From positions 1 through 64,000 of IMG/VR virus record IMGVR_UViG_3300030294_000015: a DNA stretch of 64,000 bases, one strand, 5' to 3'. Made by a program: the position numbers and the translations under genes. This DNA comes from a virus. Positions 740-24,840 of this stretch are shown here, piece after piece; position 1 is the stretch's first letter; every line of letters begins with the position of its first letter. The notes beneath the pieces were generated by a model. That model was given only the letters and a program-made list of their open reading frames with translations. It did no database searches and had not been told where the DNA came from.

Positions 740-2785
740 ATGGAAGATGAATTATTAAAAGGATATAAAGATGGTTCTAATATATCCTTATTAAATGTAA
801 TATATAATTATCCTAAAAAAGATGAAAATGGTAAATGGGAGAAACATGATAATGCTTCTTTTATTTTTTATGATTTTAATGATAATAAGATGAAGATACA
901 AGAAATAGAAGATGTACCTTATGAATTCTATACTGTAAAAGAAGACAGAGTTCCAGATAAACAACAATTCTTTATGAGTAGAAATGATGTAACTCCAGTA
1001 AGTTGTAAATATAGAGCATTAAATAAAAAAGTTGCTGAATATACAGACCAAGTAGAATTATTTAAGTCTAATATTCAAAATGGTAATGCCAGAGAAAATT
1101 ATAAATTACATTATGATCCTAGAGTCATATCCTCTGATATGCATATAGAAGATAAATTAAGAAATATGTTTGATAGAAGATATATAAATGCACCAATACC
1201 AAAAGTAACTAAAGCATTTTTCGATATAGAATATGATGGTAAAGATTATAAAGGTATAGGGATAGATAGAAATGGTACATGTCCTATAAATGCTATATCA
1301 ATGATAAATGAAGTAGACCAAAGAATATATGTATTCTTATTAAGAAATAAAGATAATCCTCTTATAGAAGAATTTGAAGGATATGCTAATACAAATCAAG
1401 TGCATATAGATTTGAGAGAATTTATAAAAGAAAATGTTGGTGGATGGAAGAATGAAATAAGATATGGACTGGATAAGTATGAATATAAATTTAATTTCTA
1501 TGATGATGAAGTACAATTAATAACTGATTTATTTGTTGTAATGAGTTGGTTCAAACCTAGTTTTATATTAGCATGGAATATGGCATTTGATATTCCTTAC
1601 ATACAAAGAAGATTAGAAAACTTAGGTGTAAATCCACAAGATATAATGTGTAATTCGGATTTCAAACATAAAGTATGTCGTTATTATATAGATGATAAAA
1701 AAGATAAAGATGGTAAAATGAAAAAGATAGAAGGTAGAGGAGATTTTGCCACTATATCTTCTCATTCAGTATTCCTAGATCAAATGATTCAATTTGCATC
1801 TAGAAGAAAAGGACAATCTAACTTTATAAGATATACTTTAGATTATATAGGTGAATCTATATGTAATGTAAGAAAATTAGATTACTCACATATTACAAAT
1901 AAGATTCATGAATTACCATATAAAGATTATAAAACATTTGTTTTCTATAATATTATGGATACAGTAGTTCAATATTGTATTGAGAAGAAAACAGGTGATG
2001 TTGATTATGTATATACGAAGTCATTAATGAATAATGTAAGGTATAGTAAAGTACATAGACAAACTACTTATCAAACAACTCGTATGAGTAAAGAGTTTTA
2101 TAATTATTATGAGGATGGTTTAATTCTAGGAAATAATATAAATGCTTCTAATCAAAAACCTAATGAAAAATATCCAGGAGCTTATGTAGCTGATCCTATG
2201 AAATTAAATGATTATTGTAAACAAAAGATAAATGGACGACCAGTAAATATTATACATAATGGGGTTGACTATGATTATTCAGCACAATATCCAAATGAAG
2301 TTAGAGAAAATAATATGGCTCCACATACACAAATAGCAAAAATAATAATAGAACAAGCTGTATATGCTAATGAAAATCCATTTAAGAATAAATACTATAC
2401 TAGAGGGGGTAATTTCTTAGAAGATTATATGACTAGAAGTATATTAGAATTATGTAGAAAATGGTTTAGTCTAGGGTCTTATGGAGAATTAATAGATGAT
2501 GTAATTAATTATATAAATAATAAGAATCTTATGTATAATCCTACACCATTTATAGGAAATAATATGGTGTTTATGAGGAAGACTAATCCTAATGAATTAA
2601 TACAGTTTATGGTTAGACAACCATTAGGAGAGAAGAGTATATTTATGAGACGGAATAATATACCAGATTATTCTTTAGCAGATAATATAAATGTGGATGA
2701 TTATGTATACAATAATGATAGAAGATATGTTAAACAATCTACATCAGATAAAAATGCACAATTAAAATATGAAGAGGAGGAATAG
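740..2785 (+). CDS. Family B DNA polymerase, N-terminal part (3'-5' exonuclease plus motif A)
   Basis: This 681-residue protein carries the proofreading exonuclease motifs of family B polymerases: Exo I FDIEYD (about residue 160), Exo II AWNMAFDIPYI (about 278) and Exo III YNIMDTVVQYC (about 403). It also has the first polymerase motif, DYSAQYPN (about 512), the counterpart of DxxSLYPS. It stops without motif B (KxxxNSxYG) or motif C (DTDS). Both lie on the minus strand at 20915-24840, so the enzyme is split between motif A and motif B. The two halves must associate to bind the catalytic metals; this is inference, by analogy with split gp43A/gp43B in some T4-like phages. Its last 80 residues hold three FMxR/K motifs (about 610, 622, 634) that do not look like polymerase sequence. 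The start follows GGTGAGGTG. Confidence 0.9.
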   Translation: MEDELLKGYKDGSNISLLNVIYNYPKKDENGKWEKHDNASFIFYDFNDNKMKIQEIEDVPYEFYTVKEDRVPDKQQFFMSRNDVTPVSCKYRALNKKVAEYTDQVELFKSNIQNGNARENYKLHYDPRVISSDMHIEDKLRNMFDRRYINAPIPKVTKAFFDIEYDGKDYKGIGIDRNGTCPINAISMINEVDQRIYVFLLRNKDNPLIEEFEGYANTNQVHIDLREFIKENVGGWKNEIRYGLDKYEYKFNFYDDEVQLITDLFVVMSWFKPSFILAWNMAFDIPYIQRRLENLGVNPQDIMCNSDFKHKVCRYYIDDKKDKDGKMKKIEGRGDFATISSHSVFLDQMIQFASRRKGQSNFIRYTLDYIGESICNVRKLDYSHITNKIHELPYKDYKTFVFYNIMDTVVQYCIEKKTGDVDYVYTKSLMNNVRYSKVHRQTTYQTTRMSKEFYNYYEDGLILGNNINASNQKPNEKYPGAYVADPMKLNDYCKQKINGRPVNIIHNGVDYDYSAQYPNEVRENNMAPHTQIAKIIIEQAVYANENPFKNKYYTRGGNFLEDYMTRSILELCRKWFSLGSYGELIDDVINYINNKNLMYNPTPFIGNNMVFMRKTNPNELIQFMVRQPLGEKSIFMRRNNIPDYSLADNINVDDYVYNNDRRYVKQSTSDKNAQLKYEEEE

Positions 2786-2789
2786 AATA

Positions 2790-3410
2790 ATGAAATTAAT
2801 TGAATTAGAAGAACTAATAAATCAATTTAAGATTATTAAATCAGATTTAGTATATCTTAGAGGGAATAATATATTTGGATTTGATTATTCACATACTATA
2901 GTGAAAGAAACATCATTCTGTAATCCTAATTCATATTTGTTGGTTATTCAGATTAAAGATTGGTTAGATTTGTTTAAACAATTAAAAGAATCAAATACTA
3001 AATATGAAAATAAAGTAATTGATGAAATTCAAGGAGACTATATATCATATAAAGGAAAAAATTATTATTATAAATCATCATTTATAATCAGTGAATTAGA
3101 TAGAAAAATAAGTACTATTCATAATATTATGAATAGTATAAAACCTGTTGAATTTATTGAAGATGTAAAATCAGATACAAACTTTAATACTACTTTAGAT
3201 AAGGAATTTAAAAGTGATTGTGGAGTTTACTTATATAGGGTAAAAGAATATGTAATGACTATTTATAAAACTCTATTAGGAATTACATCAAAAGATAATG
3301 TGTCATTGAATATCTATAATTATTCTGATTTATATTTTTTATCTAAGTATGTATTATATAATAAAAAACAATCTATATCCATATATTTAAATTTAAGAAA
3401 ATTACCATAA
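2790..3410 (+). CDS. Hypothetical protein, about 206 aa
   Basis: I chose ATG 2790 because GAGGAGG lies 11 bases before it; the open frame itself extends slightly into the polymerase gene. The product is mixed alpha/beta, Lys/Tyr-rich and soluble, with no recognised motif. It lies between the N-terminal polymerase and portal genes and ends at a terminator. Function unknown. Confidence 0.65.
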   Translation: MKLIELEELINQFKIIKSDLVYLRGNNIFGFDYSHTIVKETSFCNPNSYLLVIQIKDWLDLFKQLKESNTKYENKVIDEIQGDYISYKGKNYYYKSSFIISELDRKISTIHNIMNSIKPVEFIEDVKSDTNFNTTLDKEFKSDCGVYLYRVKEYVMTIYKTLLGITSKDNVSLNIYNYSDLYFLSKYVLYNKKQSISIYLNLRKLP

Positions 3411-3436
3411 AAGGAACGAAAGTTCCTTTATTTTTT
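3410..3436 (+). terminator. Rho-independent terminator with GAAA loop
   Basis: AAAGGAAC-GAAA-GTTCCTTT is a perfect 8-bp stem with a GNRA tetraloop, followed by ATTTTTTA. Confidence 0.85.
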
Positions 3437-3481
3437 ACCTCACGAAACATTGGAATAATAATGAAACGGAGGTAATATATT

Positions 3482-5728
3482 ATGGAAAATGATAAGAGAA
3501 AAAGTATAAGTTCTAAATTTATACAATCTATAACTGGAAAAGTAAATCAATTAAAACAATCAACATCTTTTTTACCATCTAATATAACAGATGATACATT
3601 ATATATAACACAGAATATAAATTCAGAAATAGATAAATTAATAACTCATAATGAAGATATAGAGGGAGAAGCTAATATAGCCAATCTTTATAATAGAATA
3701 GGAAATACTAGTATAAAAGATAATGGTAAAAATGTATCACTTGATTCTATATTTAATTCAAGACAGTTATCTGAACAAATAATGCCTAATTTTATTCAAA
3801 ATAGACAATTATTAGAATATGAAGAAATGATAGATACAATAGTAAAATATTTTCCTACAATGCAAGATGTACTTGATGTAAAAAAAGATCATGTATTATG
3901 TGCAGATCATTATACAAAAGACTTTATTAATGTATTAGATTTAACCACAAATAAATCTACATCAGATGAAGAAGCTTCTGTATTCCAACAAAATATATCA
4001 TATATAAAAGATAAATATAATTTGATAAATCAATATGATAAATTTTATGATATCACGGCATCATATGGAGAATGTTTTATTTATATAAAAGGATATAATG
4101 ATGCTATAGGTGAATTATTAAAGAATAAGAATAAAAATCCAGCTTATCATACAGAAAGTTTTGTATTAAATGAATGTTTTTCTTCTCAAAATGATAATCC
4201 TATAAAAGTACATAAACCTGACACTGAGTATTCTAATTATCTAAATGATATTTCAAAATTAGAATTTACAATCAATTACAATAAATATGGATATATATCA
4301 TCTGCTGTTTCAGAAGCTCATAATATGAGAGAAATATTAACAGAACAACAGCAAAATATTAATATTGGTTATAAAATGATGGAGAAAAAATTAGTACCAG
4401 ATAAATTAGGATTTGAAGGTATACAAGATGGTTTAATAGACAGAGGGAATATAAAAGAAAATAATAAAGATTATGAGAATCCTAAATTAGATTTAAAAGG
4501 TTGTATAGTGCGTAAACTAAGAAGAGAAAATATAATTCCTTTATATTTTGATGATGATACTGTTGTTGGTTATTTTTATATAGAAAGTGAGATTCAAAAT
4601 GAATTAAGAGACTCTAGTAAAAGTAATGCATCCCCATTTAGAGGAAATATGGCTAATATGTCATCTATATTTAATAATACAAAATCAGAAGAAAGAAAAA
4701 ATATATTGACATATATATCTGATAAATTATCTAAAATGATAGATGAAAAGTTTATTAAAGATAATCAAGATTTAAAGAAAGAAATATATCTTGTATTAAA
4801 AAATACTCAAATATTAGAAAAAGGACAAACACAAGTTAATGCTGTATTTATACAACCACAAGATATTATTCATATGAAGTTTGATGAAGATCCATTAACA
4901 CATAGAGGGGTCTCTGATTTAGATAAATCTATTGTACCTGCTAGTATGTATATAAATCTATATACTACAAATACTATTGGTATATTGACTAGAGGATTTG
5001 ATAAGAGAGTATACTATGTAAAGAATAGAGTAGATACAAACATAGCTAGAACATTACTTAATGTAATGAATCAACTAAAAAGAGGAAATATGGGTACTAG
5101 AGAAATATCTAATCCTAAGACAGCTTTAAATATTACTGGTAGATATAATGATGTATTAATCCCTGTAGGACAATCAGGGGATGCTCCTGTTACAATAGAA
5201 AATATGCCTGGTCAAGATATAGATACTAAACAAGACTTAATGGAATCATTAAAAGAATTAGCTATAGGTCCAACTAATGTACCTTTAGATTATGTGGATC
5301 AATCTAAACAAGTGGATTTTGCTACAAGACTTACTATGTCTAATTATAAATTTTTAAGATCTATATATAAGAGACAATCATTAACAAATCCTTTCTTTAC
5401 AAAAATACTTCAAAAAATATATGATTATGAATTCCCAGATGATACTGTAAAATTAAAGGTAACTTTACCTGCACCAGTATATATAAACACAATGGGAGTT
5501 GCAGAAATATTCAGAGTAGTAAATGATTACTCCCAACAAATAGCAGAGACAGAGTTTGTTAATCAAAGCGATCCATTAATAGAAATAAAGAAAAAGATAT
5601 TTATATCAGAACATAATAAACAAGTTATGGGTTCTCAATTAGATAGAAACCTTATATCTAAAGCAAAAGAATATGCTGATTTACATGCTTCAGAATATTC
5701 AGCTCCTAATGATAATAGTGTAATGTAA
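3482..5728 (+). CDS. Portal protein (T4 gp20-like)
   Basis: This 748-residue protein resembles T4-type portals, the dodecameric ring at the capsid vertex through which DNA is packaged. The central region has QPQDIIHMKFDEDP, then a conserved block beginning with DKRVYYVKN (about 510) that matches the portal core around the wing and stem. Next comes VPLDYVDQS, like the loop preceding the tunnel helix, and a helical C-terminus. The first 130 residues are polar and probably disordered. The start follows GGAGGTAATATATT. It is the last plus-strand gene before a shared terminator; tail genes converge on it from the right. Confidence 0.8.
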   Translation: MENDKRKSISSKFIQSITGKVNQLKQSTSFLPSNITDDTLYITQNINSEIDKLITHNEDIEGEANIANLYNRIGNTSIKDNGKNVSLDSIFNSRQLSEQIMPNFIQNRQLLEYEEMIDTIVKYFPTMQDVLDVKKDHVLCADHYTKDFINVLDLTTNKSTSDEEASVFQQNISYIKDKYNLINQYDKFYDITASYGECFIYIKGYNDAIGELLKNKNKNPAYHTESFVLNECFSSQNDNPIKVHKPDTEYSNYLNDISKLEFTINYNKYGYISSAVSEAHNMREILTEQQQNINIGYKMMEKKLVPDKLGFEGIQDGLIDRGNIKENNKDYENPKLDLKGCIVRKLRRENIIPLYFDDDTVVGYFYIESEIQNELRDSSKSNASPFRGNMANMSSIFNNTKSEERKNILTYISDKLSKMIDEKFIKDNQDLKKEIYLVLKNTQILEKGQTQVNAVFIQPQDIIHMKFDEDPLTHRGVSDLDKSIVPASMYINLYTTNTIGILTRGFDKRVYYVKNRVDTNIARTLLNVMNQLKRGNMGTREISNPKTALNITGRYNDVLIPVGQSGDAPVTIENMPGQDIDTKQDLMESLKELAIGPTNVPLDYVDQSKQVDFATRLTMSNYKFLRSIYKRQSLTNPFFTKILQKIYDYEFPDDTVKLKVTLPAPVYINTMGVAEIFRVVNDYSQQIAETEFVNQSDPLIEIKKKIFISEHNKQVMGSQLDRNLISKAKEYADLHASEYSAPNDNSVM

Positions 5729-5735
5729 GCATAAA

Positions 5736-5768
5736 ATAGTCTACAGGATTATCCTGTAGACTATATCT
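5736..5768. terminator. Bidirectional terminator between portal and tail tube genes
   Basis: A 12-bp perfect stem, ATAGTCTACAGG / CCTGTAGACTAT, with a five-base loop is flanked by A-rich sequence on the left and T-rich on the right. It lies between two converging stop codons and can serve both strands. Confidence 0.85.
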
Positions 5769-5769
5769 T

Positions 5770-6549: not shown

Positions 6550-6567
6550 ATTATTTCCCTCCTTCTT

Positions 6568-11097: not shown

Positions 11098-11907
11098 CTA
11101 TTCTTCATCTATTTCTGAACTATGTTGCATATCTAAAATATTTCCTACAGGAATAAGTCCTACAGAATCTATTTTGAATCTAATGTCTGTTATTAATATT
11201 GACTTATATTCTGAATATAATATTGGTAGAATTATATTCTTATAAAAATCACAATTACATGTAAAGTTTTGTCGTATATAATTAGAAACACTTGAATTAT
11301 TTTTATACATATAATTTAGGATAGTATCAAACGAAAAATCTATTCCTCTCATATTCTCTAAAACAAAGTTTAAGTTAGAAATAATAAGACCTAATTCTTG
11401 ATTATCATAGTTAGACTTATTGTAAATAGTAGCAGAATCTTTTTGTTTTTTAAATCTAGCAATACCAAAAGCTTCATATAATCCTTTATATTCTGACATG
11501 ATATAATTAGCATAAAAATCTGATATAGCATTTCTAAAGTTAGATATAATTAAATTATACAGACTATATGCAGCGGTATATATATCTGTAACTTCCTCAA
11601 TATCATGGAATGTGAAATCAAATTTATTACAAACTATGTTTATAATAGATCTGTATGTACTGTCTCTTAGTATTTTTATTTGTTCTAAATATGGAGCACA
11701 ATCATCTAGATTAGAAATTTCATTTTTAAAAGTTAATTCACAAGCTGCTGGTAAATTAGATAATTCATTTACAGCATTAAATCTAAAGTTTATATTTTCA
11801 TTTATAATGTCTAATATTACATCATCATCAAATCTACTAATTATATCAGATAGATTCGATTCAGTCATTATTTTTATAGACGTTGGATCGGATAGCATGT
11901 TACTCAT
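11098..11907 (-). CDS. Hypothetical protein, 269 aa
   Basis: A predominantly helical protein with an acidic tail (SSEIDEE). The pair FTCNCDFYKN holds the only close cysteines. The start follows AAAGGAGGATTATTT. It is 14 bases from the next gene in the same direction. A virion or assembly protein by position; family unknown. Confidence 0.6.
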   Translation of the reverse strand: MSNMLSDPTSIKIMTESNLSDIISRFDDDVILDIINENINFRFNAVNELSNLPAACELTFKNEISNLDDCAPYLEQIKILRDSTYRSIINIVCNKFDFTFHDIEEVTDIYTAAYSLYNLIISNFRNAISDFYANYIMSEYKGLYEAFGIARFKKQKDSATIYNKSNYDNQELGLIISNLNFVLENMRGIDFSFDTILNYMYKNNSSVSNYIRQNFTCNCDFYKNIILPILYSEYKSILITDIRFKIDSVGLIPVGNILDMQHSSEIDEE

Positions 11908-11960
11908 AAATAATCCTCCTTTAATTTTTTAATATATTACTTCTTTGTTGTATATAGGGT

Positions 11961-11992
11961 AAAAAATAAAAATGGGAAATTAATCCCATTTT
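11961..11992 (-). terminator. Terminator on the minus strand
   Basis: On the minus strand AATGGGA..TTTCCCATT forms a hairpin followed by TTTATTTTTTACC. It ends the terminase/fibre transcript before the next tail operon. Confidence 0.75.
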
Positions 11993-11998
11993 ATATTA

Positions 11999-12367
11999 TT
12001 AATTACCATAAACTTCAGTATGTGCTTTTGTTTTACACTCTTCAATATAAGTATTATAGGTTGCAAAATTTTCAGTATCCGTTCCATTAATTTTTTCTCT
12101 TAATATTTTATATTCATCATCAGATGAGTATTTCTCTCTTATATAGTGCACTGTAAAATTATTATATCTTTCTTTTTTATCTTCATCGGTTTCTACTTTG
12201 ACAGATATAATTCCACCTTCAATCCATTTAGAATTATCCCATTTTGGTTTTATAAATCCTTGAGGACAAATTGTTTCAATACAATCACTTGGAATTGATT
12301 CACTGTCTTCTATTAAAACATCTTCTACAAAATAGCCATCACTATCAATTTTTAATACTTTTTTCAT
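11999..12367 (-). CDS. Fibre-associated small protein, about 122 aa
   Basis: The start is ATG 12367 after GGGTAGGTG, overlapping the end region of the fibre gene. The N-terminus (KVLKIDSDGYFVEDVLIED) and an SKWIEGG motif resemble small proteins that follow tail-fibre genes in Firmicute phages and prophages, which are proposed fibre chaperones or tip proteins. This comparison is from memory of the family, not a search. It probably acts with the protein encoded just upstream. Confidence 0.55.
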   Translation of the reverse strand: MKKVLKIDSDGYFVEDVLIEDSESIPSDCIETICPQGFIKPKWDNSKWIEGGIISVKVETDEDKKERYNNFTVHYIREKYSSDDEYKILREKINGTDTENFATYNTYIEECKTKAHTEVYGN

Positions 12368-12368
12368 C

Positions 12369-12794
12369 TTAAACACCTACCCTAAAACTTATACCATCTA
12401 AAGAAACACATTTGTCAATATAAGTATTTATTTTTACTTCTCCAATATTATTTATCTCTATTGACGTCAGATTAATGACACTACTAGTTGGTGTTTTTCC
12501 TGAATTTTGTGAAAATTTAACTATTGCTAAAGGTCTATAAGATTCAGGCATTTGAAATATTACAGTTCCAGAAACCGTTGCACTTGTTCCTCCATTGGTT
12601 ACACTACCCTTTAAATGTACATATCCCAATGAATCTTTACAGTAACCAACTGTACTATAACCATTTCCATAGTTTACCCAAGAATTAATTAATGTTGGAT
12701 CTATTGGACTTTCACATGTTGTTATTAAAGATATTATTTTATCTTTAAAATTTGATAATATAGAATATAAATTATCTTTGTTAATTAAACTCAT
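12369..12794 (-). CDS. Tail fibre / receptor-binding-type protein, 141 aa
   Basis: A helical N-terminus (about 25 residues) leads to a beta-rich head that begins SWVNYGNGYSTVGYCKDSLG and continues VHLKGSVTNGG. The W...Y.KD..G.V.LKG pattern is common in small C-terminal fibre domains of Firmicute phages. It lacks a long shaft, so it may be a tip or short fibre. The start follows AAAGGAGGAATAATA. It lies between the terminase and the small fibre-associated gene. Confidence 0.6.
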   Translation of the reverse strand: MSLINKDNLYSILSNFKDKIISLITTCESPIDPTLINSWVNYGNGYSTVGYCKDSLGYVHLKGSVTNGGTSATVSGTVIFQMPESYRPLAIVKFSQNSGKTPTSSVINLTSIEINNIGEVKINTYIDKCVSLDGISFRVGV

Positions 12795-12814: not shown

Positions 12815-15007
12815 TTAATCATCACCATAAAATCCTGTAAATACTTCATCAGGAATTTTAAATCCTTGTGATTGAACATTTCTTGTCATACATTCCATTT
12901 CTACATCAGTCATATTATTTGATTTAGCATATGCATCTCTTCCGTGTTTTGTTTGTAATATCTTTTCAAGAGCGTCATTATCTCTTTGTCTTTCTTCTTC
13001 CATCCATTGTTTGTATGTTTTACCAGCACCTTGTTTTAAGAAATTAATTTCTTTTTGTACTAAATCATCTGTTTCTAAATATGTTTCTATTTCTGAAGTT
13101 ATATCATTATAACCATCATTAAAACTAATAGCTTCTTCATACTTATCTTCATCATTTTTAATAGAACCTAATTGTACTCCCCAATTTTCTTCTAGGTGAT
13201 TAGGTGAACCTTCATACCATACATATAAAGCTAATAAATAAGACATTAGTTGGTCATCATGACCTGTATTACTATGATCTATTCTGTTTCTCTTTCTAAC
13301 TAATGTTTTTAATTCTTTAGCTAATATAGGAGATATAAATTTACCTTTATGATTATTAACTCTGATTCTAAGTATTTCCATTAGTGTTTCTCTAGAATTT
13401 CCAGTATTATCAAAACCATAATTTTTAACTAAAGCTTTTCTCTTGCTTAAAGTTTGACCTAAACTAGATCTATCTTCGATAACCTTTTCTTTATATTCAA
13501 AGTACAATCTATTTTTAATACTTGAATTCTTTAAGTCAGCTAATACTGCTTGTCCAAAACCACCATTTCTTTCTACATTAATTATACATTTAGAATTTGG
13601 CAAACAAGTCATTACATATTGGTATATAACCATAGCAAATTCATGTTGATTAATATAGTTACAATTAAAGTCCGCTACAACTTCAGTGGTTCTTGAGTTA
13701 ATTACGGTAAACGTAGATGAGTCTCTACTCAAACCTCCAGAAACGTCGACTCCGATTATGAATGTATCTCTTAATAACTCAATATTGTTCATAGCTTGTT
13801 TATAAATATTGACTCTATAGTGTCCTATTGGAACAGTTGCTAAAGGTTCTTTTAAACATAAAGATTCTATTAATGCTAAGTCAGATTTACTAAATGGATT
13901 ATCTCCAGAAGCTTCAGACCATTCAAGTAATACTTCTCTTCTGATAGCATCCCAATCTTTTTGCATTTCAAGACATATAGATCTAAACCATGCTTCAGAT
14001 CTTCCTAATTGTTGATACGTGAACCTAATATGAATAAATGTAGAATTTTCATTCTTATTTAGTATATCTCTTATTTCATTTATAGGTAAATCATACCACA
14101 TTTCATTAAACTCTGTTGCTAATTCTGTCATTCTATAAGCATAAGCACCTTCTTCAGTAGTTAAATCTCCAGGAGTTGTAGTAATAGCAATTCCATAAGG
14201 AGCATTATTTCTCTTTGCATTTTCTGATGCTGTTTTATAAGCAGGAGTAGCAGATAAGTAAACTATATTATTATATGGAATAAACGCAAATTCATCATAC
14301 CATTGTCTAGGTTGAGTACATCCTCTTCCTAGGGTATTAGCTTTAATTTTACTATTAGCAGAAGCAACTGTTACTATTCTATTTCTATTCATAGAATTTT
14401 CTAATATTTCTACTCTATCAATAGTTTTTACTTTCTTGCCAGTAACAGGATCGACTAAATCTTGAGACATTTGTAAGTATGATGGTAAAGCTCTACGTAT
14501 TTCTTTAAGTCTTGCTAAATTTAATTTACTATCTTCAAATTTCTTATTAATGAATGCCATTTCAGAGTTTCTAGTACCAAATAAGAATTCCCATAGTATT
14601 CTACAAATTACAGCTATTGTTTTACCATGTTGTCGAGGTAATTCACAGAATACATTCCAATTATTTATAAGACAATAGTTTAATGCTAAATTTCCTCTAT
14701 GTAATTCATACATTTTACCAGAATTAGCAGAACCACCCTGTTCAGGAATACGTAATACTTCTCTTAGAAAGTACCAATAATTATATGTACATTCTCTAAA
14801 TACTCTTTGTTTTATTTGATAATTTATATTTGGATCTCTAGGATCAATAGACATTAGTAATGGATCTGTAACGGCTAAAAAGAAACTATTATTTTGTATT
14901 CCTTTAGATCTAAGAATGACATGCATATTCATATATGATGTATTCTTAGTATTATTCTGTATGTAATACTTCTTATTAGCCATAACTGGAGCTTGTAATA
15001 AAGCCAT
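12815..15007 (-). CDS. Terminase large subunit (T4 gp17-like, DNA-packaging ATPase and nuclease)
   Basis: This 730-residue protein has every expected catalytic motif. Walker A is LPRQHGKT (about residue 123) and Walker B is YDEFAF (about 237). The RNase H-like nuclease acids are in VDVSGG (about 419), NVERNGG (about 477) and GHDDQ (about 584). It docks on the portal, pumps DNA into the prohead and cuts the concatemer. The start is ATG 15007 after GAGAGGAGGAAATTTA. A degenerate FMxR-like motif (CMTRN) lies near residue 708. Two divergent copies of its ATPase region lie directly upstream in the same orientation. Confidence 0.9.
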   Translation of the reverse strand: MALLQAPVMANKKYYIQNNTKNTSYMNMHVILRSKGIQNNSFFLAVTDPLLMSIDPRDPNINYQIKQRVFRECTYNYWYFLREVLRIPEQGGSANSGKMYELHRGNLALNYCLINNWNVFCELPRQHGKTIAVICRILWEFLFGTRNSEMAFINKKFEDSKLNLARLKEIRRALPSYLQMSQDLVDPVTGKKVKTIDRVEILENSMNRNRIVTVASANSKIKANTLGRGCTQPRQWYDEFAFIPYNNIVYLSATPAYKTASENAKRNNAPYGIAITTTPGDLTTEEGAYAYRMTELATEFNEMWYDLPINEIRDILNKNENSTFIHIRFTYQQLGRSEAWFRSICLEMQKDWDAIRREVLLEWSEASGDNPFSKSDLALIESLCLKEPLATVPIGHYRVNIYKQAMNNIELLRDTFIIGVDVSGGLSRDSSTFTVINSRTTEVVADFNCNYINQHEFAMVIYQYVMTCLPNSKCIINVERNGGFGQAVLADLKNSSIKNRLYFEYKEKVIEDRSSLGQTLSKRKALVKNYGFDNTGNSRETLMEILRIRVNNHKGKFISPILAKELKTLVRKRNRIDHSNTGHDDQLMSYLLALYVWYEGSPNHLEENWGVQLGSIKNDEDKYEEAISFNDGYNDITSEIETYLETDDLVQKEINFLKQGAGKTYKQWMEEERQRDNDALEKILQTKHGRDAYAKSNNMTDVEMECMTRNVQSQGFKIPDEVFTGFYGDD

Positions 15008-15051
15008 TAAATTTCCTCCTCTCACATAAATTACTTAAATGTTGAAAGGAG

Positions 15052-15092: not shown

Positions 15093-15257
15093 TTATTTAG
15101 TTTCATCAAATATATCTACAGAATGTTTTTCTACTATCTCTAATGTCTTACTATTATCATGAGTATTAATTACAGTAGGTGCAACACTTTCTAATACACT
15201 AATACTTCCATCTTTAAATATCCTAATAACAATACCATGCTTTTCATTTATAATATT
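15093..15257 (-). other. ATG-less reading frame; possible -1 frameshift extension of the terminase paralogue
   Basis: A coding-like frame of 54 residues, ending VDIFDETK and a TAA stop, starts where the upstream paralogue ends but lies in the -1 frame. It contains no ATG. The heptamer T TTA AAA at 15263-15257 (minus strand) stands in the correct zero-frame register for tandem tRNA slippage, six bases before the zero-frame stop. Frameshifted product: terminase-like domain plus 54 residues. Alternatives are a fixed frameshift mutation or a small gene with a rare ATT/ATA start. Confidence 0.45.
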
Positions 15258-16366
15258 TTTAAATCATCCATTATACTTATTCTTTCATATGTAAGATTGT
15301 CTTCAATCCATTCTAATAGAACAGATTTTTTGATAGTCTCTTTATCATCATTCAATGATCTAGAAATTTGAAGATACCATTCTTGTGAAAAATACAATTG
15401 TTTATATGTATATCTGATGTGTACAAATGAATTACTTGATTTTTTAGAAACCATATCTTTAATATCTTCAACAGATTTATCATACCATGTATCATCAAAT
15501 TTAATTCCACTATTCATTAAATCAAATACATATTTTTGAGAAGGTATTCTTTTATCACCAGAAAAAGTTGTAGCTATAATACCATATGGATTTTTATCTT
15601 TTTCTGATACTTGTTTAATTATATCATTGAATATTTTTAGTTTTTCCTCAGATAATAATATATCTATATTATTAATATTAACTAGATCAAAATAACATTG
15701 TCTAGGTTGAGTTAATCCTCTAGCTACTATTTCCGATTTTTGTTTGGTATTTCCTGAAGGTATACAAATAATTTTATTATGATTTAAATTATTTAATAAT
15801 TTTTCTTTATAATCCTTATGATTAGTCATTGCTTTAAATATTATTCCTTTTTCCATTCGTAGGTATGATGGTAATAATTTTCTGAGATCTTTAAATTTAG
15901 TTAAATCCAATTGATTTTTTTCAAAGCTTTTATCTATAAATGAAGTGTTTAAATATTTAGTACCAAATAAGAACTCCCATAATATTCTACATAATACAGA
16001 TATATCTTTATATCCATAAGTTGGTAATTCTAATATAGTATTTAAATTATTTATAACACAGAAATTTAATGCTAGATTACCTTTATGTAATTCGTACATT
16101 TTATAAGGTATATTAGAACCTTGTATTGGTATTCTTACAATTTCTCTTAGAAAGTACCAATAATTTAATGTACATTCTTTAAATATTCTTTGTTTAATTT
16201 CATATGATAAATTTGGATCATATGGATCAAGATTTTCTAAAGACTCATCAAATAATGCTAAAAAGAATTTATTATTTTCAACTTTCTCCTGTTTTAATAT
16301 TGCAACCATTTTTACGAATGACATATTCTTAGTTGTGACATGAATATTGTATTTAATTTCTTCCAT
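15248..16366 (-). CDS. Terminase-like paralogue, ATPase motifs lost, no nuclease domain
   Basis: This 372-residue protein aligns along its whole length with the first 370 residues of the true terminase. Shared blocks include FKECTLNYWYFLREIVRIP, KMYELHKGNLALNFC and CRILWEFLFGTK. The Walker A lysine/threonine site is replaced (LPTYGYKDISV against LPRQHGKTIAV), and the Walker B DE becomes FD. The RNase H-like nuclease domain is absent. It cannot be a standard packaging ATPase. It could be a structural or regulatory subunit of the motor, or a decaying duplicate. The frame is intact over 1.1 kb with a good start (AAGGAGGAAAATAAA), which argues for selection. See the possible frameshift extension. 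Confidence 0.8.
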   Translation of the reverse strand: MEEIKYNIHVTTKNMSFVKMVAILKQEKVENNKFFLALFDESLENLDPYDPNLSYEIKQRIFKECTLNYWYFLREIVRIPIQGSNIPYKMYELHKGNLALNFCVINNLNTILELPTYGYKDISVLCRILWEFLFGTKYLNTSFIDKSFEKNQLDLTKFKDLRKLLPSYLRMEKGIIFKAMTNHKDYKEKLLNNLNHNKIICIPSGNTKQKSEIVARGLTQPRQCYFDLVNINNIDILLSEEKLKIFNDIIKQVSEKDKNPYGIIATTFSGDKRIPSQKYVFDLMNSGIKFDDTWYDKSVEDIKDMVSKKSSNSFVHIRYTYKQLYFSQEWYLQISRSLNDDKETIKKSVLLEWIEDNLTYERISIMDDLKIL

Positions 16367-16427: not shown

Positions 16428-17309
16428 TTATTCTGATTTTGTATAATGATTAGCTTTATATTTCTCTTCTAATGATTCAGCTTCTTCATCTGTCATATCG
16501 TCATATAACATAAATATTTCTTTTAATAATCTATCTGTATTATTATCTAATTTTTCAAATTGTTCTTTAATCCATTCATTAGAATATCCTAAAGTTTTTA
16601 CATCATAATTTAACATTTTAAAATTATGACCACTATGATCTTTAGTAAATCTATATTTAATGTTTCTAGAATCTCCACTAGAATTACTTATTATTGTAGT
16701 AATTCCAGTATCTAATAAAAATTTAGATGGAGCTAAATCAGACACATTCATATAAATTATCAAACCTATATTTATATTATTGCTATTCAATTTTTCAAAT
16801 TGTTCTTTATCATAATTATGATATAATATTCTTGATGATAATTCATTAAGAGGTTTAATCTTTAAATATTTAGGTATATTATCATATAACTTTGATATAT
16901 CCATATTCTTAGCCTCACTATATTTATCAGTAGTATAAAACATTATACATTCATCTGTGAATAATAACTTATACATCATATATCCAATAATTAAATCATT
17001 TACATGAGTACCTTTTGGATGATCCACAACTATATTATTTTTATTAGTATGTACTAATTTAATACTCATAAAACCAGTTATATCTATTGGCATTGGTATT
17101 AATTCATCATTTACATTTATTTTAAGCTTGTCCAAGAAGTACAAAGGATTATTCATACAATTATGTAATTCTAATACACCTTTATATTTTTCATCTATTG
17201 TGTCATTGATTGCAATATTTCCATCTTCATTTAATACATCAATCACCTTACATTTTTTATCTGATGCAATATCAGAATACAATTTTAGAAAGTTATCATT
17301 TAATTTCAT
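16428..17309 (-). CDS. Second, more divergent terminase-like paralogue, 293 aa
   Basis: The start is ATG 17309 after AGGTGTTATAAA. The order of blocks follows the terminase ATPase region: PLYFLDKLKI corresponds to YWYFLREVLRI, then a degenerate Walker A region (DHPKGTHVNDLIIGY), then MYKLLFTDECIMFYTTDKYSEAKN for LWEFLFGT..AFINKKFEDSKLN, NIPKYLKI for ALPSYLQM, and LGYSNEWIKEQFEKLDNNTD for LGRSEAWFRSICLEMQKDWD. Catalytic ATPase residues and the nuclease are gone. It lies immediately upstream of the first paralogue, making a three-gene tandem family. Function unknown. Confidence 0.65.
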   Translation of the reverse strand: MKLNDNFLKLYSDIASDKKCKVIDVLNEDGNIAINDTIDEKYKGVLELHNCMNNPLYFLDKLKINVNDELIPMPIDITGFMSIKLVHTNKNNIVVDHPKGTHVNDLIIGYMMYKLLFTDECIMFYTTDKYSEAKNMDISKLYDNIPKYLKIKPLNELSSRILYHNYDKEQFEKLNSNNINIGLIIYMNVSDLAPSKFLLDTGITTIISNSSGDSRNIKYRFTKDHSGHNFKMLNYDVKTLGYSNEWIKEQFEKLDNNTDRLLKEIFMLYDDMTDEEAESLEEKYKANHYTKSE

Positions 17310-17381
17310 TTTATAACACCTCATTCATAATATTTTACATTTATTAGTTATTTACTTATTATCTTTTGAAATATCGTATTT

Positions 17382-18309: not shown

Positions 18310-18553
18310 AATTTATAACCTCCAATTCTAATTTAATAATTAAATTGTATAATTTCTTATCATCCATATTTTTTAAAGTATCTAAATCATATTCTGGTTT
18401 ATATTGTTTAATGATTTCTATTAATTGAGCTTTTGTATATGATTTTCCACTACGACGATTTAATAAAACATTTTTAATATGATTTAAATTAGGATTATCA
18501 TTTCCTTTTTCATCAATTAATTTAATAAGATCTTTTATATCATTTCCATTCAA
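18299..18553 (-). CDS. Small helical protein, 84 aa
   Basis: The product is helical with many charged residues; the segment SYTKAQLIEIIKQYKPEYD followed by LDTLKNMDDKKLYNLIIKL resembles SAP-like or other helix-extension-helix nucleic-acid-binding units. That comparison is a guess. It follows the AP2-type gene by 4 bases and overlaps the possible 26-aa gene. Confidence 0.55.
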   Translation of the reverse strand: MNGNDIKDLIKLIDEKGNDNPNLNHIKNVLLNRRSGKSYTKAQLIEIIKQYKPEYDLDTLKNMDDKKLYNLIIKLELEVINYGI

Positions 18554-18557
18554 ATAA

Positions 18558-19421
18558 TTAATCTGTTATTTCTACTCTATATCTATATAAAGCAGGATAT
18601 ATTATATCTTTATATTGAGGTATATATTGTCCTCCTTTTTCATAATAGTAATAATCTGCTACTCTTTTAATATATGATTCTTTAGCTTCTTTATAAGCAT
18701 AAAAAGCTTCCTCTGGATTTGAAAAAGTCCCTAAAAATAAATTTTTAGTCTTTGGTATACTAATTCTTAGCTCTGATATATATTTATTGCAACCATTACT
18801 ATAAAAAACACCTATAGGTAAATCACCTCTAACCTTATCACATTTTATAAACAATATATTTATTCTTTGAGGTACAAATATACATGTATCAGGACTATAT
18901 ATTTTATTATTTTTAATTAATATATCTTTATCTAAACTCATCATTTCATTTGGAAATTGATAATAATTCTGATAATACCATTCAATAAAATTTTGGAAAT
19001 TATGAAATCTTTTATCAACAGTTACTTTTATATATGTATTACATAAATTTTTAAAATTTACTGAACAACTTCGGTTTATCATTTGTAGCCAACATCTATA
19101 TATAATAGGTATATCTTTTGGTCTATAACCTTCCCCTAAATATCCTGTATTGCAACATGATAAATCATAAGGAGATTTCATACATCCTTTTAAAAATTTA
19201 TCATAAGATCTATTATATACAATATAATAATTTATCTTTCCATTTTTCATAATATTAATAATACAAACATCTATATCTATACTATTTCTATAATCTACTA
19301 TTATCATTGGAGACCCATAAAAGTTATAATTAATCTCTCCAATTCTTGGGTGGTTATTTTTATTAGGTTTATCTCTTGTCATAAATTTCTTTAATTCTAG
19401 ATCTTCTTTTTCTATAAACAT
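18558..19421 (-). CDS. AP2-domain, homing-endonuclease-type protein (paralogue 1)
   Basis: One of three paralogues (also 20065-20901 and 46957-47870). It begins with an FMTRD tag, then NNHPRIGEINYNF. The middle has the W..M..R pattern and RFHNFQNFIEWY, like phage HNH-type endonucleases of the free-standing kind. Next come YSPDTCIFVPQRINILF and an AP2-like DNA-binding segment: GVFYSN, ISELRISI, LGTFSNPEEAFYAYKEAKE. I see no complete HNH catalytic motif, so activity is uncertain. The C-terminus VEITD is shared with the paralogues. The start follows AGAGGATGA. Probably a selfish gene inserted between operons. Confidence 0.65.
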   Translation of the reverse strand: MFIEKEDLELKKFMTRDKPNKNNHPRIGEINYNFYGSPMIIVDYRNSIDIDVCIINIMKNGKINYYIVYNRSYDKFLKGCMKSPYDLSCCNTGYLGEGYRPKDIPIIYRCWLQMINRSCSVNFKNLCNTYIKVTVDKRFHNFQNFIEWYYQNYYQFPNEMMSLDKDILIKNNKIYSPDTCIFVPQRINILFIKCDKVRGDLPIGVFYSNGCNKYISELRISIPKTKNLFLGTFSNPEEAFYAYKEAKESYIKRVADYYYYEKGGQYIPQYKDIIYPALYRYRVEITD

Positions 19422-19446
19422 AATATATTCATCCTCTCTTGTAAGT

Positions 19447-20004
19447 TTATATGTCTTTAATAAATAATACAGAAGTACATTTACATTCTTTATAATAGTA
19501 TGGAAAGCATATAGGACATATTATATCTTTACTCCATATATTAGGTAAATCTTTCACTTTATTAAAATCATTATTTAAAAGCAACTTCTCTGAATTTACT
19601 TTTATTCCATTAAATAGATTAGATTGAACAGCAACTGCTATTATAAAATGATAAGAGTTATCTTTAGCAAATTTTACCACTTCATTTAACAAAGCTTGTC
19701 CATATGATTTATGTTGATATTCCTTTTTTATAATAATACCATCAATATAGATTACTTTGTCATTATTAGAAGGAATTATATTTTTTAATTTTTTATATCT
19801 CTGTATTAATTCTATATTACTAGATTCAGAAAATGTAATAAATCCTATATTCTCTTCTTCATTATCAATTAATCTACAATGTATAGAGTTATCATAATAA
19901 CAATCAGTATAATTATCTAATGATGTTTTATAATCAGCAGAAAATTCTTTATTGTCTAATTTAGAAATCCAATTTATATCATCTTTTTTCATATCTCTTA
20001 TCAT
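19447..20004 (-). CDS. GNAT-family N-acetyltransferase
   Basis: The 185-residue product has the GNAT acetyl-CoA-binding core: IYIDGIIIKKEYQHKSYGQA followed by LLNEVVKFA, the strand-loop-helix with a Q/RxxGxG/A-type pyrophosphate loop. The C-terminus carries CPICF and CKC, possibly a small metal site. The substrate cannot be told from sequence; phage GNATs may modify host proteins or small molecules. It lies between two AP2-type genes, so it may be cargo of the accessory island. The start is ATG 20004 after AAAAGGGGGTAAT. Confidence 0.7.
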   Translation of the reverse strand: MIRDMKKDDINWISKLDNKEFSADYKTSLDNYTDCYYDNSIHCRLIDNEEENIGFITFSESSNIELIQRYKKLKNIIPSNNDKVIYIDGIIIKKEYQHKSYGQALLNEVVKFAKDNSYHFIIAVAVQSNLFNGIKVNSEKLLLNNDFNKVKDLPNIWSKDIICPICFPYYYKECKCTSVLFIKDI

Positions 20005-20024
20005 TTATATTACCCCCTTTTCAT

Positions 20025-20052
20025 AGAAGAAAGATTATAATAATCCTTCTAG
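20025..20052 (-). terminator. Possible terminator after AP2-type gene
   Basis: On the minus strand TAGAAGGATTA and TAATCTTTCTTCTA form an imperfect hairpin between the two genes. The poly-T tract is weak. Confidence 0.35.
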
Positions 20053-20064
20053 AATGAAATTATA

Positions 20065-20901
20065 TTAATCTGTTATTTCTATATCATATCTCAACATTGC
20101 AGGATAAAATACATCTCTAAATTGAGGAATATTCATTCCACCTTTATTATAAAGATAATCATCTGCTACTTCTTTTATATAAGATAGTTTCCTTGCTCTA
20201 TATACATAAAATGCTTCTTCTGAAGTTTTAAATCTTTTCTTAAATTTATTTATTTCAATACAATATTTTTGACTATAATTTTCAAAATAAACTCCTATAG
20301 GTAAATTTCCTCTTAAAGCTTTACGATTGAGAAATAGTAGATTAATTCTTTCTGGTACAAAACAACATGTATCTGGACCATATATTTTATTTCCTTTAAA
20401 TATTATATCCTTATCCACACACATTTTTTCATTTGGAAATTTATAATAATTTAAATTATACCATTTGATAAAATTTTGAAAATTCTCAAACCACGGATGA
20501 AGTTTAACATCTTTATATGATGGACTTTGTATTTTAAATTCTATAGAATTAGTTCTTGTCAACATATGATTCCAAAATCTATATATTTCAGGAACATCTT
20601 TTGGTCTATATCCTTCTCCTATATAACCAATACCACATGTGGCTTTATCATACGGCGATTTAATATCTTTTCCATTTTTAAAATGATTGTACATTCTATT
20701 ACAAATATTATTATATTTTATAGTACCATCTGATAATATATTAATAATACAGACATCTATATCAGCATTATTTCTATAATCAGTTATTATCATTGGAGAA
20801 CCAGAGAATTTATAGTTGACTTCTCCAATTCTTGGATGGTTATTTTTATTTGGTTCATCTCTTGTCATAAATTTCTTTAACTTTGGGTTTTCATTTTCCA
20901 T
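20065..20901 (-). CDS. AP2-domain, homing-endonuclease-type protein (paralogue 2)
   Basis: Closely related to the 18558-19421 product. It has KKFMTRDEPNKNNHPRIG at the N-terminus, YIGEGYRPKDVPEIYRFWNH in the middle and WFENFQNFIKWYN for the endonuclease-like core. YGPDTCCFVPERINLLF follows, then an AP2-like segment starting GVYFENYSQKYCIEI, with FKTSEEAFYVYRARK. It ends IEITD. The start follows GGAAAATAAT, 13 bases after the split polymerase gene's stop, as expected for a free-standing homing gene lodged next to a conserved gene. No full HNH triad is visible. Confidence 0.65.
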   Translation of the reverse strand: MENENPKLKKFMTRDEPNKNNHPRIGEVNYKFSGSPMIITDYRNNADIDVCIINILSDGTIKYNNICNRMYNHFKNGKDIKSPYDKATCGIGYIGEGYRPKDVPEIYRFWNHMLTRTNSIEFKIQSPSYKDVKLHPWFENFQNFIKWYNLNYYKFPNEKMCVDKDIIFKGNKIYGPDTCCFVPERINLLFLNRKALRGNLPIGVYFENYSQKYCIEINKFKKRFKTSEEAFYVYRARKLSYIKEVADDYLYNKGGMNIPQFRDVFYPAMLRYDIEITD

Positions 20902-20914
20902 ATTATTTTCCTTT

Positions 20915-22656
20915 CTAAAATGAAATTATATTTGTGTAGTTGTTATGAGAATTACCTTGGTATATATCTAATGGAGCTAAAGGAAATAATGATAAAGAAC
21001 TATTAATGATTTTATTATAATCTATAAATATAGTCAAAAATTCAGGCATTGCAATATTTGTTGGAATACAAACTGACGTTATACTTCCTTTGTACATTTT
21101 ATCGGGTAATAATTCTTTTATTTTTATATATTTTTCCATAAAATAATCAGCTTTATTTTTAAAACTCAAATCATTCTTTTCTTTTGATTCTAAATATAAT
21201 TTATCAGCAGTTCTTTTTAATTTCTCTATGGTTTTTACGTTTATCAATACATCTACTAATTCTAAAGCATTACTTCCTTCCAGATCGAATCCATCCATAT
21301 TATCATCTTTAATTTTATTCCATGTATACATACCTTTAACTCCAGAAATCCTTAATGGGTCGTCATAATTTGCCAAAGCTTTTACTTTTCTAGGTTTGTA
21401 AAAATCTTTTTTACCAACTCTAAGGTTTTCATATATTTCTTTTTCAAATATTGCTAAATCTTTTAATAATTTAATTTGGTCAAATTCTGAAACATTTAAT
21501 ACATCTTCATACATTATTTGTTTTAATCTCTTTTGTGTGTATTTATTCGTAATACTTTTGGTAAGTGCCATTCCTTTATAATCCGTAAATCCATCTTTTA
21601 TCAAATTTCCTTCTTGTATTTCTTGTATAGAAGCATAATTCTTCTTTACATTTGTAAGAAGTATTGTCTTAAATAAGAATTCGTTTTTCATATTAATAAG
21701 ACATTCTTTACCCTCAGCCCATGAATGTGTATTCTTAGTATATCTTTCCATATAGTCATTTACAAAATGTGTAAGACAATAACTCATAATATTTACTATA
21801 GAATATCTTACACCTTCTTGTGGAATGATCTTTAAAGGATTAATCATCTTTTTCATTTGAATAACTTCATCATCATAGAAAGAATAATCTAAGTCATCTT
21901 CCATTCTTTCCATAAATTTAATTGGTTGCTTTAAATCATTAAACTCATCTGTTTCTAATCTTTCCATTAAATCTATAGGGGTGTGCTTTATCTTTAAATC
22001 TATTCCTTCTATTTTATTTAATACATAACGATAGAATGGATCTAAACTCAAAATATCGCTATCCGTGTCTGTGAGAGCTACAACTGAACGAATCATATTA
22101 TTATATTTATCTATTCTATTAAATATTTGATGATTATAATAGATATATTCATGTAATAATGTTTCAAAATATCCTAATTCTTCTTCAACTTCATGAGGAC
22201 ATTCATTTGGGTCCATAAATGGTTTATCTAATTTTTTAAGTACTTTAATCATAGATTCATTTACATGATTATTTTCTAAGAATTCATATAAATTATTTTT
22301 ATAGTATATTCTATTTACATTATCTGGTGATAATCCACATATTATATTATAAATTATATCCATATCTTTTTTATCGGGAATATAATTAAATCCACATGTA
22401 GAAATTATTTTAGCGAAACAATCATCTACAGATACATTACAATCTAATATATTATTATCATTAAATATTCTATCTGGAATTTCTTTTATTATATTATGTA
22501 TAAATTCTACTATTTCATTTAAACATTCAAATTTTGCATTATTAGCTAAGAATGATTCAAAGAATAATCCTGCTGAAGATATACATGATCTTGCTTGAGT
22601 TGTGATAGATGGAGCTACATGTAAATTGTATAGAATACAACTATATTGCCCTAAAC
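20915..22656 (-). CDS. Family B DNA polymerase, C-terminal part, exon 2 (motif C, thumb)
   Basis: After removal of the intron 22657-24398, this exon continues exon 1 in frame (442 + 1742 bases; 727 residues in total). It opens with LGQYSCILYN and PSITTQARSCISSAG, the helix following motif B, which lies upstream of the first ATG in this frame, so a standard ORF call at 22363 misses it. Motif C, the catalytic metal site, is ALTDTDSDIL. Downstream, KPRKVKALANYDDPL with GVKG corresponds to the thumb/KKRY region that binds template-primer. The partner half with exonuclease and motif A is at 740-2785 on the other strand. Confidence 0.85.
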
Positions 22657-24398
22657 CGCTACATTCAATAAGTTTGTTAAACTTATCAGTTTTATTATAA
22701 ACTTCCCTACTGTTAAGTAGGTGGCTAGACTATATCATTTACCTATACAACTTTATTTCTAATCTTATATAGGCAACCTACCACTTCGATTTAAGGAGGC
22801 ATTATATCATTATTACTGAAAACCTCCACCTCAATAACTTAGGCTCTACTCTACTTGCTTTGTATTATTAAAGGTATTTAATTGTTTTTCTTTATATCCT
22901 TTTACTATTTTCTTGAAACTATTTCCTCTACATATTTCTCTTATAGCTTCATTTAAATTTTTATTTTTAAAGTCCAAATTCAATATATCCATTATTTCTT
23001 TTGTATTTTTTCTTTCAATGAAATGTAATTCACAAATTTGTTTAACAATGTCATTATCGAAATACTTAGATTTATCATTTAATTCTGGAAAATTGTAATC
23101 TTTAACAACATTCTTCCATTTAGATTTTCTAAGAATATGTGTAACTCTATCCCTAACTACTCTATCATTATAATCTAATTCCAATTCATTCATTATTTCT
23201 TTACATGATTTTGATTGCATTCTGAGTTCACATATATCTCTTACTATTTTTTCTGTGAATTTTTGCCCATATTTCAAATTTTCATATGGAGGAAAAATAT
23301 AATCTTTAGATATCTCTATCCATGTTTCTCTATTTATTATATGATTTACTCTTCCTTTAGTCGATTCATAATCCCAACCAAGTCTTTCACATATTTCTTT
23401 TGGAGTTAACATGTTTGTTCTCATTTCACAAATTTGTATTACTATATCTTCATCTATTTTTTGTGAATATTTTTCACTTTCTAATGGTGGCATATCATAA
23501 TTACATGTAATATAATTATATATTTCTCCTAATATAATTCTTCTTACTCGCATTCTTTCAGTTTCACTATATTCTAATCCTAATTCTTTTATTATTTCAT
23601 GTATTTGTAAACCTTGTTCTCTTAATTTACATATTGCATTTACTTGAACTTCTGTATATGCTTTATCATTATTTAAAATATTTTCATGTTGCATATTTAA
23701 AGCTCTAGTAGTCCATTCTAAATTAAATAAATAATTATCTAATTTATCCCCATATATATGATTAACATGTAAATCATTCATATTTAAGCAAGGTCTAAAA
23801 GTCATCATAATCAATCTATGTACCAATACATAATAAGATTGGTTATTAATACGTAATACTACTCTATAATAACCACTATTTATAATAGTAGAAATAATAA
23901 ATTGATTTCTTAAATTAGAATATACTCTTCCATGAGTACTTACACTATATTCATTATAATATAAACCATTAATATTCACATATGACCATTTTTCTGGATA
24001 TATTGGGCTTTGATATATTCTTGGATCTGTATAAAATGTAGGTGTATAATCTTCATCCATTCTATACATAAATTTTCTTAATATAAAAATCATACCTTTC
24101 AATTTATATTTACCTTTTAATAATACCTTATTTTTAACTAGACATATCTCTATGTAAACTAGTATATAGCTTTCGATAGTCGTTGAACATTAATTTCTTA
24201 ATGCTGCTGATTACTCCTTGTTAATAACACTTAGCACCTATATAATAGGCTTTTATTTCAGCATATGTCAGGTTCATACATTATTTCTACTTTCGTTACC
24301 ATTTCTTATTAATTATGGTTTATGAACTTTTGTGAGCTTCCCAGCAATTCAATAGGTTATTCATTTTTATGTTACCATAAAAAGGGGCAGGAAAGTTT
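22657..24398 (-). ncRNA. Group I intron in DNA polymerase, with HNH endonuclease ORF
   Basis: The 1742-nt intron begins AAACTTTCC after exon ..TACGGGT and ends ..TGTAGCG before exon GTTTAGGG, obeying the U/G rule for 5' and 3' ends. Splicing gives NSLYG-C-LGQYS, restoring motif B. GGGU of the exon pairs with GCCC in the intron (P1). Core elements are visible: P (AATTGCTGGGAAGC), Q (GTAATCAGCAGC), R (GTTCAACGACTATCG) and S (GATATAGTCT). The core is nearly identical to introns at 53115 and 60367, pointing to spread within this genome. The ORF occupies 22846-24102; the flanks 22657-22845 and 24103-24398 are ribozyme. Confidence 0.85.
22846..24102 (-). CDS. HNH homing endonuclease (NUMOD4-HNH plus four HTH-like repeats)
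   Basis: Intron-encoded. NUMOD4-like start: PEKWSYVNINGLYYNEYSVS and THGRVYSN. HNH core: VHRLIMMTFRP, VNHIYGDKLDN, LEWTTRALNMQHEN. Four tandem units of about 60 residues follow, each with a helix-turn-helix-like sequence (for example VIQICEMRTNMLTPKEICER and VRDICELRMQSKSCKEIMNE) ending W/Y-x-x-I/V-x-K-x-Y. They probably read an extended target spanning the intron-less polymerase gene. The start is TTG 24102 or ATG 24093; the FMYR tag sits near the N-terminus. Its 3' end overlaps conserved intron core sequence. Role: copy the intron into intron-less polymerase alleles. Confidence 0.8.
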   Translation of the reverse strand: MKGMIFILRKFMYRMDEDYTPTFYTDPRIYQSPIYPEKWSYVNINGLYYNEYSVSTHGRVYSNLRNQFIISTIINSGYYRVVLRINNQSYYVLVHRLIMMTFRPCLNMNDLHVNHIYGDKLDNYLFNLEWTTRALNMQHENILNNDKAYTEVQVNAICKLREQGLQIHEIIKELGLEYSETERMRVRRIILGEIYNYITCNYDMPPLESEKYSQKIDEDIVIQICEMRTNMLTPKEICERLGWDYESTKGRVNHIINRETWIEISKDYIFPPYENLKYGQKFTEKIVRDICELRMQSKSCKEIMNELELDYNDRVVRDRVTHILRKSKWKNVVKDYNFPELNDKSKYFDNDIVKQICELHFIERKNTKEIMDILNLDFKNKNLNEAIREICRGNSFKKIVKGYKEKQLNTFNNTKQVE

Positions 24399-24840
24399 AC
24401 CCGTATAAAGAATTCGTGTCGATCTTATATAGTAATTGTAACAAATTATATTTTTCAAAATCTTCACTTCCCTTAGGAAATTTAAACATCATCTTCTTAG
24501 CTTTCTTTCTGTTATCAAGATAAGAACTTATAAGATTAATTAATGGATTTCTCATTTCTGAATGACGTTTAAACATTACACCTGAAGCACAGAGAATGGG
24601 TTGCCTGTTTATTATATATTCTATTGTATCTAATAGAGTAGTATTTATTGTCTTCTCATTATAATTATTATATAATTTTGCTTGAGGATTTTGGAATCTA
24701 GTTTCTATAGATTGATTTACAGCTTTCTCTAAATCCATTTTATTTAATCCTGGAAAGTTTAAAGGAAGCATATCCATTACTACCTCTTTATATTGTTTGA
24801 TAATTTGCTTGTCTTGTAATTCTGTAATACTACAAGCCAT
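24399..24840 (-). CDS. Family B DNA polymerase, C-terminal part, exon 1 (fingers, motif B)
   Basis: This exon encodes 147 codons plus one base. The fingers/motif B region is unmistakable: CASGVMFKR, NRKKAKKMMFKFPKG, then YNLLQLLYKIDTNSLYG, equivalent to KxxxNSxYG, which binds incoming dNTP. The unspliced frame runs into a stop two bases into the intron. The start is ATG 24840 after AAAAGGAGTGTGATTAT, 138 bases from the divergent gene at 24979. It begins directly after the point where the plus-strand half ends functionally, so the split lies between motifs A and B. Confidence 0.85.

Follow-up and report, generated by a model that had tools for sequence, protein, structure and literature searches.

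Two distant genes of a giant-phage metagenomic fragment encode the predicted subunits of one split family B DNA polymerase

Sequence analysis of a 64,000-nucleotide stretch of viral DNA (here called the window) revealed two genes, located on opposite strands, that very probably encode the two subunits of one replicative family B DNA polymerase, assembled in trans, of a giant myovirus belonging to the phiKZ/PBS1-AR9 assemblage (estimated probability, about 0.9). The window covers positions 1 to 64,000 of an IMG/VR phage record of 94,152 bp, a linear metagenomic fragment with a GC content of about 25%. One gene (half 1) encodes the exonuclease and polymerase motif A, and the other (half 2), which is interrupted by an intron, encodes motifs B and C (Table 1). 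Together, the halves cover one family B polymerase without overlap. This kind of split, first described around 2012, is inherited within a known group of giant phages, and the window provides a new example of it, not its discovery.

Half 1 contains the motifs Exo I (FDIE), Exo II (WNMAFD), Exo III (YNIMD), and motif A (DYSAQYPN), whereas neither motif B nor motif C is present, as a preliminary description of the window had stated. In an alignment of the window sequence with 16 relatives, the exonuclease acids and the motif A aspartate D512 are invariant across all 17 sequences. A profile built with these relatives matches residues 102 to 437 of RB69 gp43, from the exonuclease to motif A (E = 2e-13), and PHROG 3011, a DNA polymerase family, covers residues 47 to 587 of half 1. 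The AlphaFold model of half 1 (mean pLDDT of 69.8) has RB69/T4 gp43 as its top PDB match (E = 7e-17). Values below 50 were obtained for the palm segment (residues 467 to 533) and the tail (residues 595 to 681); for the palm segment of a chain modeled alone, such low values are expected if folding needs the partner chain.

Exon 1 of half 2 matches PF00136 with 24.5 bits (cutoff, 23) as well as positions 17 to 163 of PHROG 2927. For exon 2, matches to PF20286 (divDNApol, "Divergent Family B DNA polymerase"; E = 4.6e-24) and PHROG 2927 (E = 4.6e-53) were obtained, and its homolog in phage AR9 is g152. The spliced product has a predicted length of 727 amino acids. The earlier assignment of KIDTNSLYG and DTDS as motifs B and C agrees with their invariant residues in 23 relatives. 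A half 2 profile matches solved family B polymerases in the region from the fingers to motif B (E = 1.5e-5), and the model built for a related half 2 that lacks an intron (pLDDT of 74) has T4/RB69 gp43 as its best match (E = 6e-6), with poor global superposition. The matches of the halves to RB69/T4 gp43, in both sequence and fold, support the view that one complete, nonoverlapping set of motifs is distributed over two genes, which PHROGs keeps as separate DNA polymerase families (3011 and 2927).

Table 1. Positions in the window of the split polymerase, its intron, and the FM-x-R motif
Feature	Position	Strand	Remark
Half 1, "exonuclease subunit" of split family B DNA polymerase	740..2785	+	681-aa ORF
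Exo I motif (DIEYD)	1223..1237	+	D162, I163, E164 invariant in 17 sequences
Polymerase motif A (DYSAQYPN)	2273..2296	+	Catalytic Asp D512; D512 and P518 invariant
C-terminal tail of half 1 with three FM-x-R/K motifs, lineage-specific	2570..2653	+	Residues 611-638
Half 2 exon 1, fingers portion ending in motif B	24399..24840	-	147 aa
Motif B (KIDTNSLYG)	24400..24426	-	K, N, Y, G invariant in 23 relatives
Intron, 1,742 nt, directly after motif B	22657..24398	-	Junction 24399/22656
NUMOD4-HNH homing endonuclease ORF inside intron	22846..24102	-	Weak Pfam matches
Half 2 exon 2, remaining palm (motif C), KxY region, thumb	20915..22656	-	PF20286, PHROG 2927
Motif C (DTDS)	22058..22069	-	D353, T354, D355, S356 invariant in 23 relatives
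FM-x-R sites, window	740-2785 (residues 78, 611-638), 21905-21916, 27843-29951, 33955-35568
FM-x-R sites, window (continued)	18561-20901, 46942-47823, 52173-54429, 56365-56706
FM-x-R sites, collinear relative G001	L178-L191

The active site of family B polymerases requires the aspartate of motif A and the aspartate of motif C. Since these residues are encoded here on separate chains, we infer that the chains associate physically, forming a heterodimer with a composite active site; the same distribution supports the earlier view that assembly in trans would be needed. The motif A strand of the palm would come from subunit 1, together with the proofreading exonuclease and the N-terminal domain, and subunit 2, translated from a spliced mRNA, would contribute the thumb, the fingers with motif B, and the rest of the palm, including motif C. 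The polymerase is divided within the fingers region, behind motif A. The catalytic metal site would combine the motif A aspartate of one chain with the motif C aspartate of the other, and an active enzyme would be formed only after the two chains have joined in trans.

A different division of labor, in which subunit 1 is a stand-alone proofreading exonuclease and subunit 2 a self-sufficient divergent polymerase with an internal replacement of motif A, appears improbable. It would fit the description in the relevant passages of Iyer et al. 2021 (PMC7824862), where a divergent polymerase (group-1 divergent PolB) lacks a fused exonuclease, the exonuclease is encoded separately elsewhere, and the location of motif A is not mentioned. 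However, the exonuclease chain keeps the motif A aspartate and the Tyr-Pro pair across the range from phiKZ to the window, and motif A is retained on the aligned exonuclease chains of phiKZ, SPN3US, AR9, phiR1-37, MarsHill, and a Fusobacterium phage. Moreover, the match of half 1 to RB69 passes through motif A to residue 437, and half 2 starts within the fingers, ahead of motif B, with no second conserved motif A in its alignment.

In agreement with a two-subunit polymerase, the same split, which the preliminary description had proposed to look for in relatives, was found there and in known phages. Half 2 was detected in 21 of the 24 records that carry half 1 (the record of the window also has half 1), and the three without it are short contigs of 44 to 80 kb. 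No ORF joining both halves was found in the loci scanned, which include about 80 half 2 loci. The interval between the halves in metagenomic relatives is mostly about 15 to 30 kb. The halves are convergent in G001, divergent in G010, G011, and G012, and codirectional in G003, G007, G015, and G024; in a sister group (L141-L148), they lie head-to-head with less than 3 kb between them. Since both the order and the orientation of the halves vary freely among relatives, the opposite-strand layout carries no functional information. Across the sequences compared, the split is ancestral and stably kept, with gene position and orientation drifting, and its presence throughout the clade and in phiKZ shows that it is old.

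In T4-like phages, gp43A and gp43B represent a family B polymerase split in the fingers region, encoded by adjacent genes in an otherwise T4-like genome. This was the comparison drawn in the preliminary description, and a recent fission of a T4-like polymerase, driven by an intron or endonuclease, would likewise place the break between motifs A and B, with homing endonucleases adjoining the motifs as in the window. Such an origin is nevertheless very unlikely. The halves are 21 kb apart, the best isolate matches of both are AR9, PBS1, and related Bacillus phages, and they match separate jumbo-phage families (PHROG 3011 and 2927; PF20286). Furthermore, the split is clade-wide and also present in phiKZ and thus old, the intron lies downstream of it and is missing at that site in the close relative L066, and no fused gene was found in the close relatives scanned. 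Jumbo phages of the phiKZ/AR9 type are the proper comparison.

The joining of unrelated contigs, with halves from different genomes or a gene that is really intact, is conceivable because the 94,152-bp record is a linear fragment from a metagenome, and an assembly error between 2.8 and 20.9 kb was named beforehand as a possible flaw. It is negligibly probable here, since an independent contig (G001) is collinear over 94 kb, with portal, tail, and terminase genes separating its halves as well, which excludes misassembly in this region, and since many further contigs, as well as isolates, show the split. G001, a 263,571-bp contig from another metagenome, follows the whole 94-kb record from half 1 (at position 168157 of G001) onward, and the portal, tail, terminase, and further genes that separate its halves are in the same order as in the window. 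Half 1 is 75% and half 2 72 to 76% identical between the two. Neither a second family B polymerase nor a PolA or PolIII was found in the 94,152-bp record or the relatives searched; as the record is a 94-kb fragment, this result rests partly on relatives of 236 to 263 kb.

The view that half 2 is a spliced minus-strand gene was correct in that an intron interrupts it, but the ORF boundaries previously given (24397 and 22363) differ from the splice sites. Among 25 shifted junctions tested, 24399/22656 alone restored the sequence SLYG-C-LGQ of L066, which reads uninterrupted through the same site (SLYG-C-LGQYSC). At this junction, exon 1 ends in U and the intron ends in G. An exon-final U together with an intron-final G is the usual signature of group I introns. 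A possible P1 hairpin (GGGU/GCCC) at the 5' site is present in the MFE structure with −6.2 kcal/mol, no better than in shuffled sequences. Rfam intron models found nothing at either the gathering threshold or E ≤ 1; divergent introns can escape such models. Judging from its sequence, the intron probably belongs to group I, and we infer that it is spliced in vivo. The ORF inside the intron matches HNH_3 (E = 7e-5) and NUMOD4 (E = 0.003), both just under the curated cutoffs, and has homologs in G001 and G016. The most plausible reading of the intron is a selfish, mobile homing-endonuclease element that has settled in a conserved motif and forms no part of the split.

Introns in half 2 of relatives occupy several sites, including motifs B and C, and some relatives have none. 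Members of the same lineage as the window (G001/G008; L002, L066-L070) share about 75% identity, the gene order, and the opposite strands with it, but their intron lies in motif C (5689-6382 in L066) and not in motif B. In L018/L019, an intron is located at motif A of half 1 (around 11509-12586). As read from these loci, all three catalytic motifs of the split polymerase are colonized by introns within one clade. Elsewhere in the window, a gene at 52173-55269 (+) is split by a NUMOD4-HNH-like ORF (53284-54429) and corresponds to a single 510-aa ORF in G001 (213978-215507); this interruption is probably a second intron. Three paralogs (18558-19421, 20065-20901, and 46942-47826) resemble, by eye, free-standing homing endonucleases of the AP2 type and share an FMTR N terminus. 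Pfam gave no match for the one paralog tested, and one of these candidate endonucleases directly follows half 2.

The genomic context of the split genes also resembles that of jumbo phages of the phiKZ/AR9 type, as pieces of a multisubunit RNA polymerase are present. The region 27843-29954 of the window matches PHROG 3015, an RNA polymerase beta subunit (E = 2e-63), and an RNA_pol_Rpb2_6 match was found in G001. The best isolate matches of both halves are AR9, PBS1, and BpSp, followed by Staphylococcus and Yersinia jumbo phages. The chimallin gene is missing from PBS1, PALS_2, and phiR1-37 (PMC10299810). Other genes of the window include a second, truncated copy of the terminase large subunit at 15248-16366 (-), adjoining the intact one (12815-15025). 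It shows 44% identity to the intact copy across the N-terminal ATPase half, lacks the nuclease half, and has apparently lost Walker A (LPRQHGKT to LPTYGYKD). The assignment of 16431-17324 as an additional terminase paralog was not supported when checked. A 633-aa protein encoded at 49381-51282 (+) looks like a phage-encoded GroEL-type chaperonin and is considered putative.

Furthermore, a short motif, FM-x-R ([ML]K.FM.R[DE]), is enriched about 13-fold in the lineage of the window and G001. The 94-kb record contains 16 copies, compared with 1.1 expected, and G001 contains 39, compared with 3.1 expected; in G001, FM-x-R is the top-enriched gapped four-residue pattern. In contrast, no enrichment was observed in AR9 (3 versus 2.3 expected), G016 (4 versus 3.0 expected), or 88 other relative loci (12 versus 22.5 expected). 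In G001, 29 of the 39 copies are located 50 residues or less from a terminus (14.3 expected). Carriers belong to 27 unrelated families. Of 38 copies, 27 fall in parts of the proteins that cannot be aligned to G016 or AR9 homologs, with copies not all independent because two of the genomes are related. The C-terminal tail of half 1 harbors FMRK, FMVR, and FMRR and is not found in the other relatives of the alignment; half 2 harbors FMER in an insert after motif C. Besides both polymerase halves, the carriers identified comprise RNA polymerase beta, another RNA polymerase subunit, an NAD-dependent ligase, an SbcD-like phosphoesterase, divDnaB, a PC4-like protein, a UvsW-like helicase, and homing endonucleases. 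Many carriers have no assigned function, and the motif is absent from those virion proteins that were identified in the record.

From this distribution, FM-x-R looks like a candidate docking or targeting tag of proteins acting on phage DNA. A more speculative reading, which we hold only tentatively, is that [M/L]K-x-F-M-x-R-[D/E] may be a genome-wide tag, added mostly at termini, through which a common hub gathers DNA-working proteins, with the split polymerase assembling there. Candidates for such a hub would be a clamp, a scaffold, or a receptor of the replication compartment. If functional, the motif would represent a rare targeting or docking code in a phage that can be read from sequence, and it looks more novel than the split itself. 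In nucleus-forming phages, the search for a conserved signal sequence for import has yielded none (PMC11087766).

The inverted and distant arrangement of the halves, presented as novel in the preliminary description, has precedents, since distant halves are routine in AR9, MarsHill, phiKZ, and SPN3US and opposite strands occur in phiR1-37. In AR9/PBS1, g132 and g152 represent the same two families with the same split point as in the window, and motif A is on the exonuclease chain. The AR9 halves are 15 kb apart and share the minus strand, with no interruption in g152, whereas the halves of the window are on opposite strands and half 2 is interrupted; the AR9 proteins show about 28 to 30% identity to them. 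In the AR9 annotation, g132 is a "DnaQ-like exonuclease and partial catalytic domain" and g152 the catalytic subunit, and both are described in PMC5312081. In phiR1-37, the halves (g170 and g164-g167) are on opposite strands like those of the window and half 2 is in exon-like pieces, but they are divergent, about 1.7 kb apart, and half 2 is broken at another site. MarsHill has halves 21 kb apart and a spliced half 2, and a split pair is also present in Staphylococcus jumbo phages.

In the nucleus-forming phages phiKZ (082/050), SPN3US (gp44/gp18), and OBP (Chimalliviridae), one chain likewise holds the exonuclease together with motif A and the other holds motifs B and C, with very divergent sequences and halves about 35 kb apart in phiKZ and about 28 kb apart in SPN3US. 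Our profile searches recovered the pair in phiKZ (082 and 050) and SPN3US (44 and a match at 12.9 kb). PMC5694885 applies the term split subunit DNA polymerase to SPN3US gp18/gp44 and places its first identification in OBP, in 2012, and the passage on phiKZ in PMC5105663 states that its split subunit DNA polymerase was recognized ten years after sequencing. No biochemical or structural evidence for a two-chain complex was found in the publications searched, and the split poses a testable question, namely, whether the exonuclease subunit supplies a catalytic carboxylate. Many more genomes now confirm that giant phages with multisubunit RNA polymerases divide the predicted polymerase active site between two gene products, a split that is common to the phiKZ and AR9 branches, with no reversal seen.
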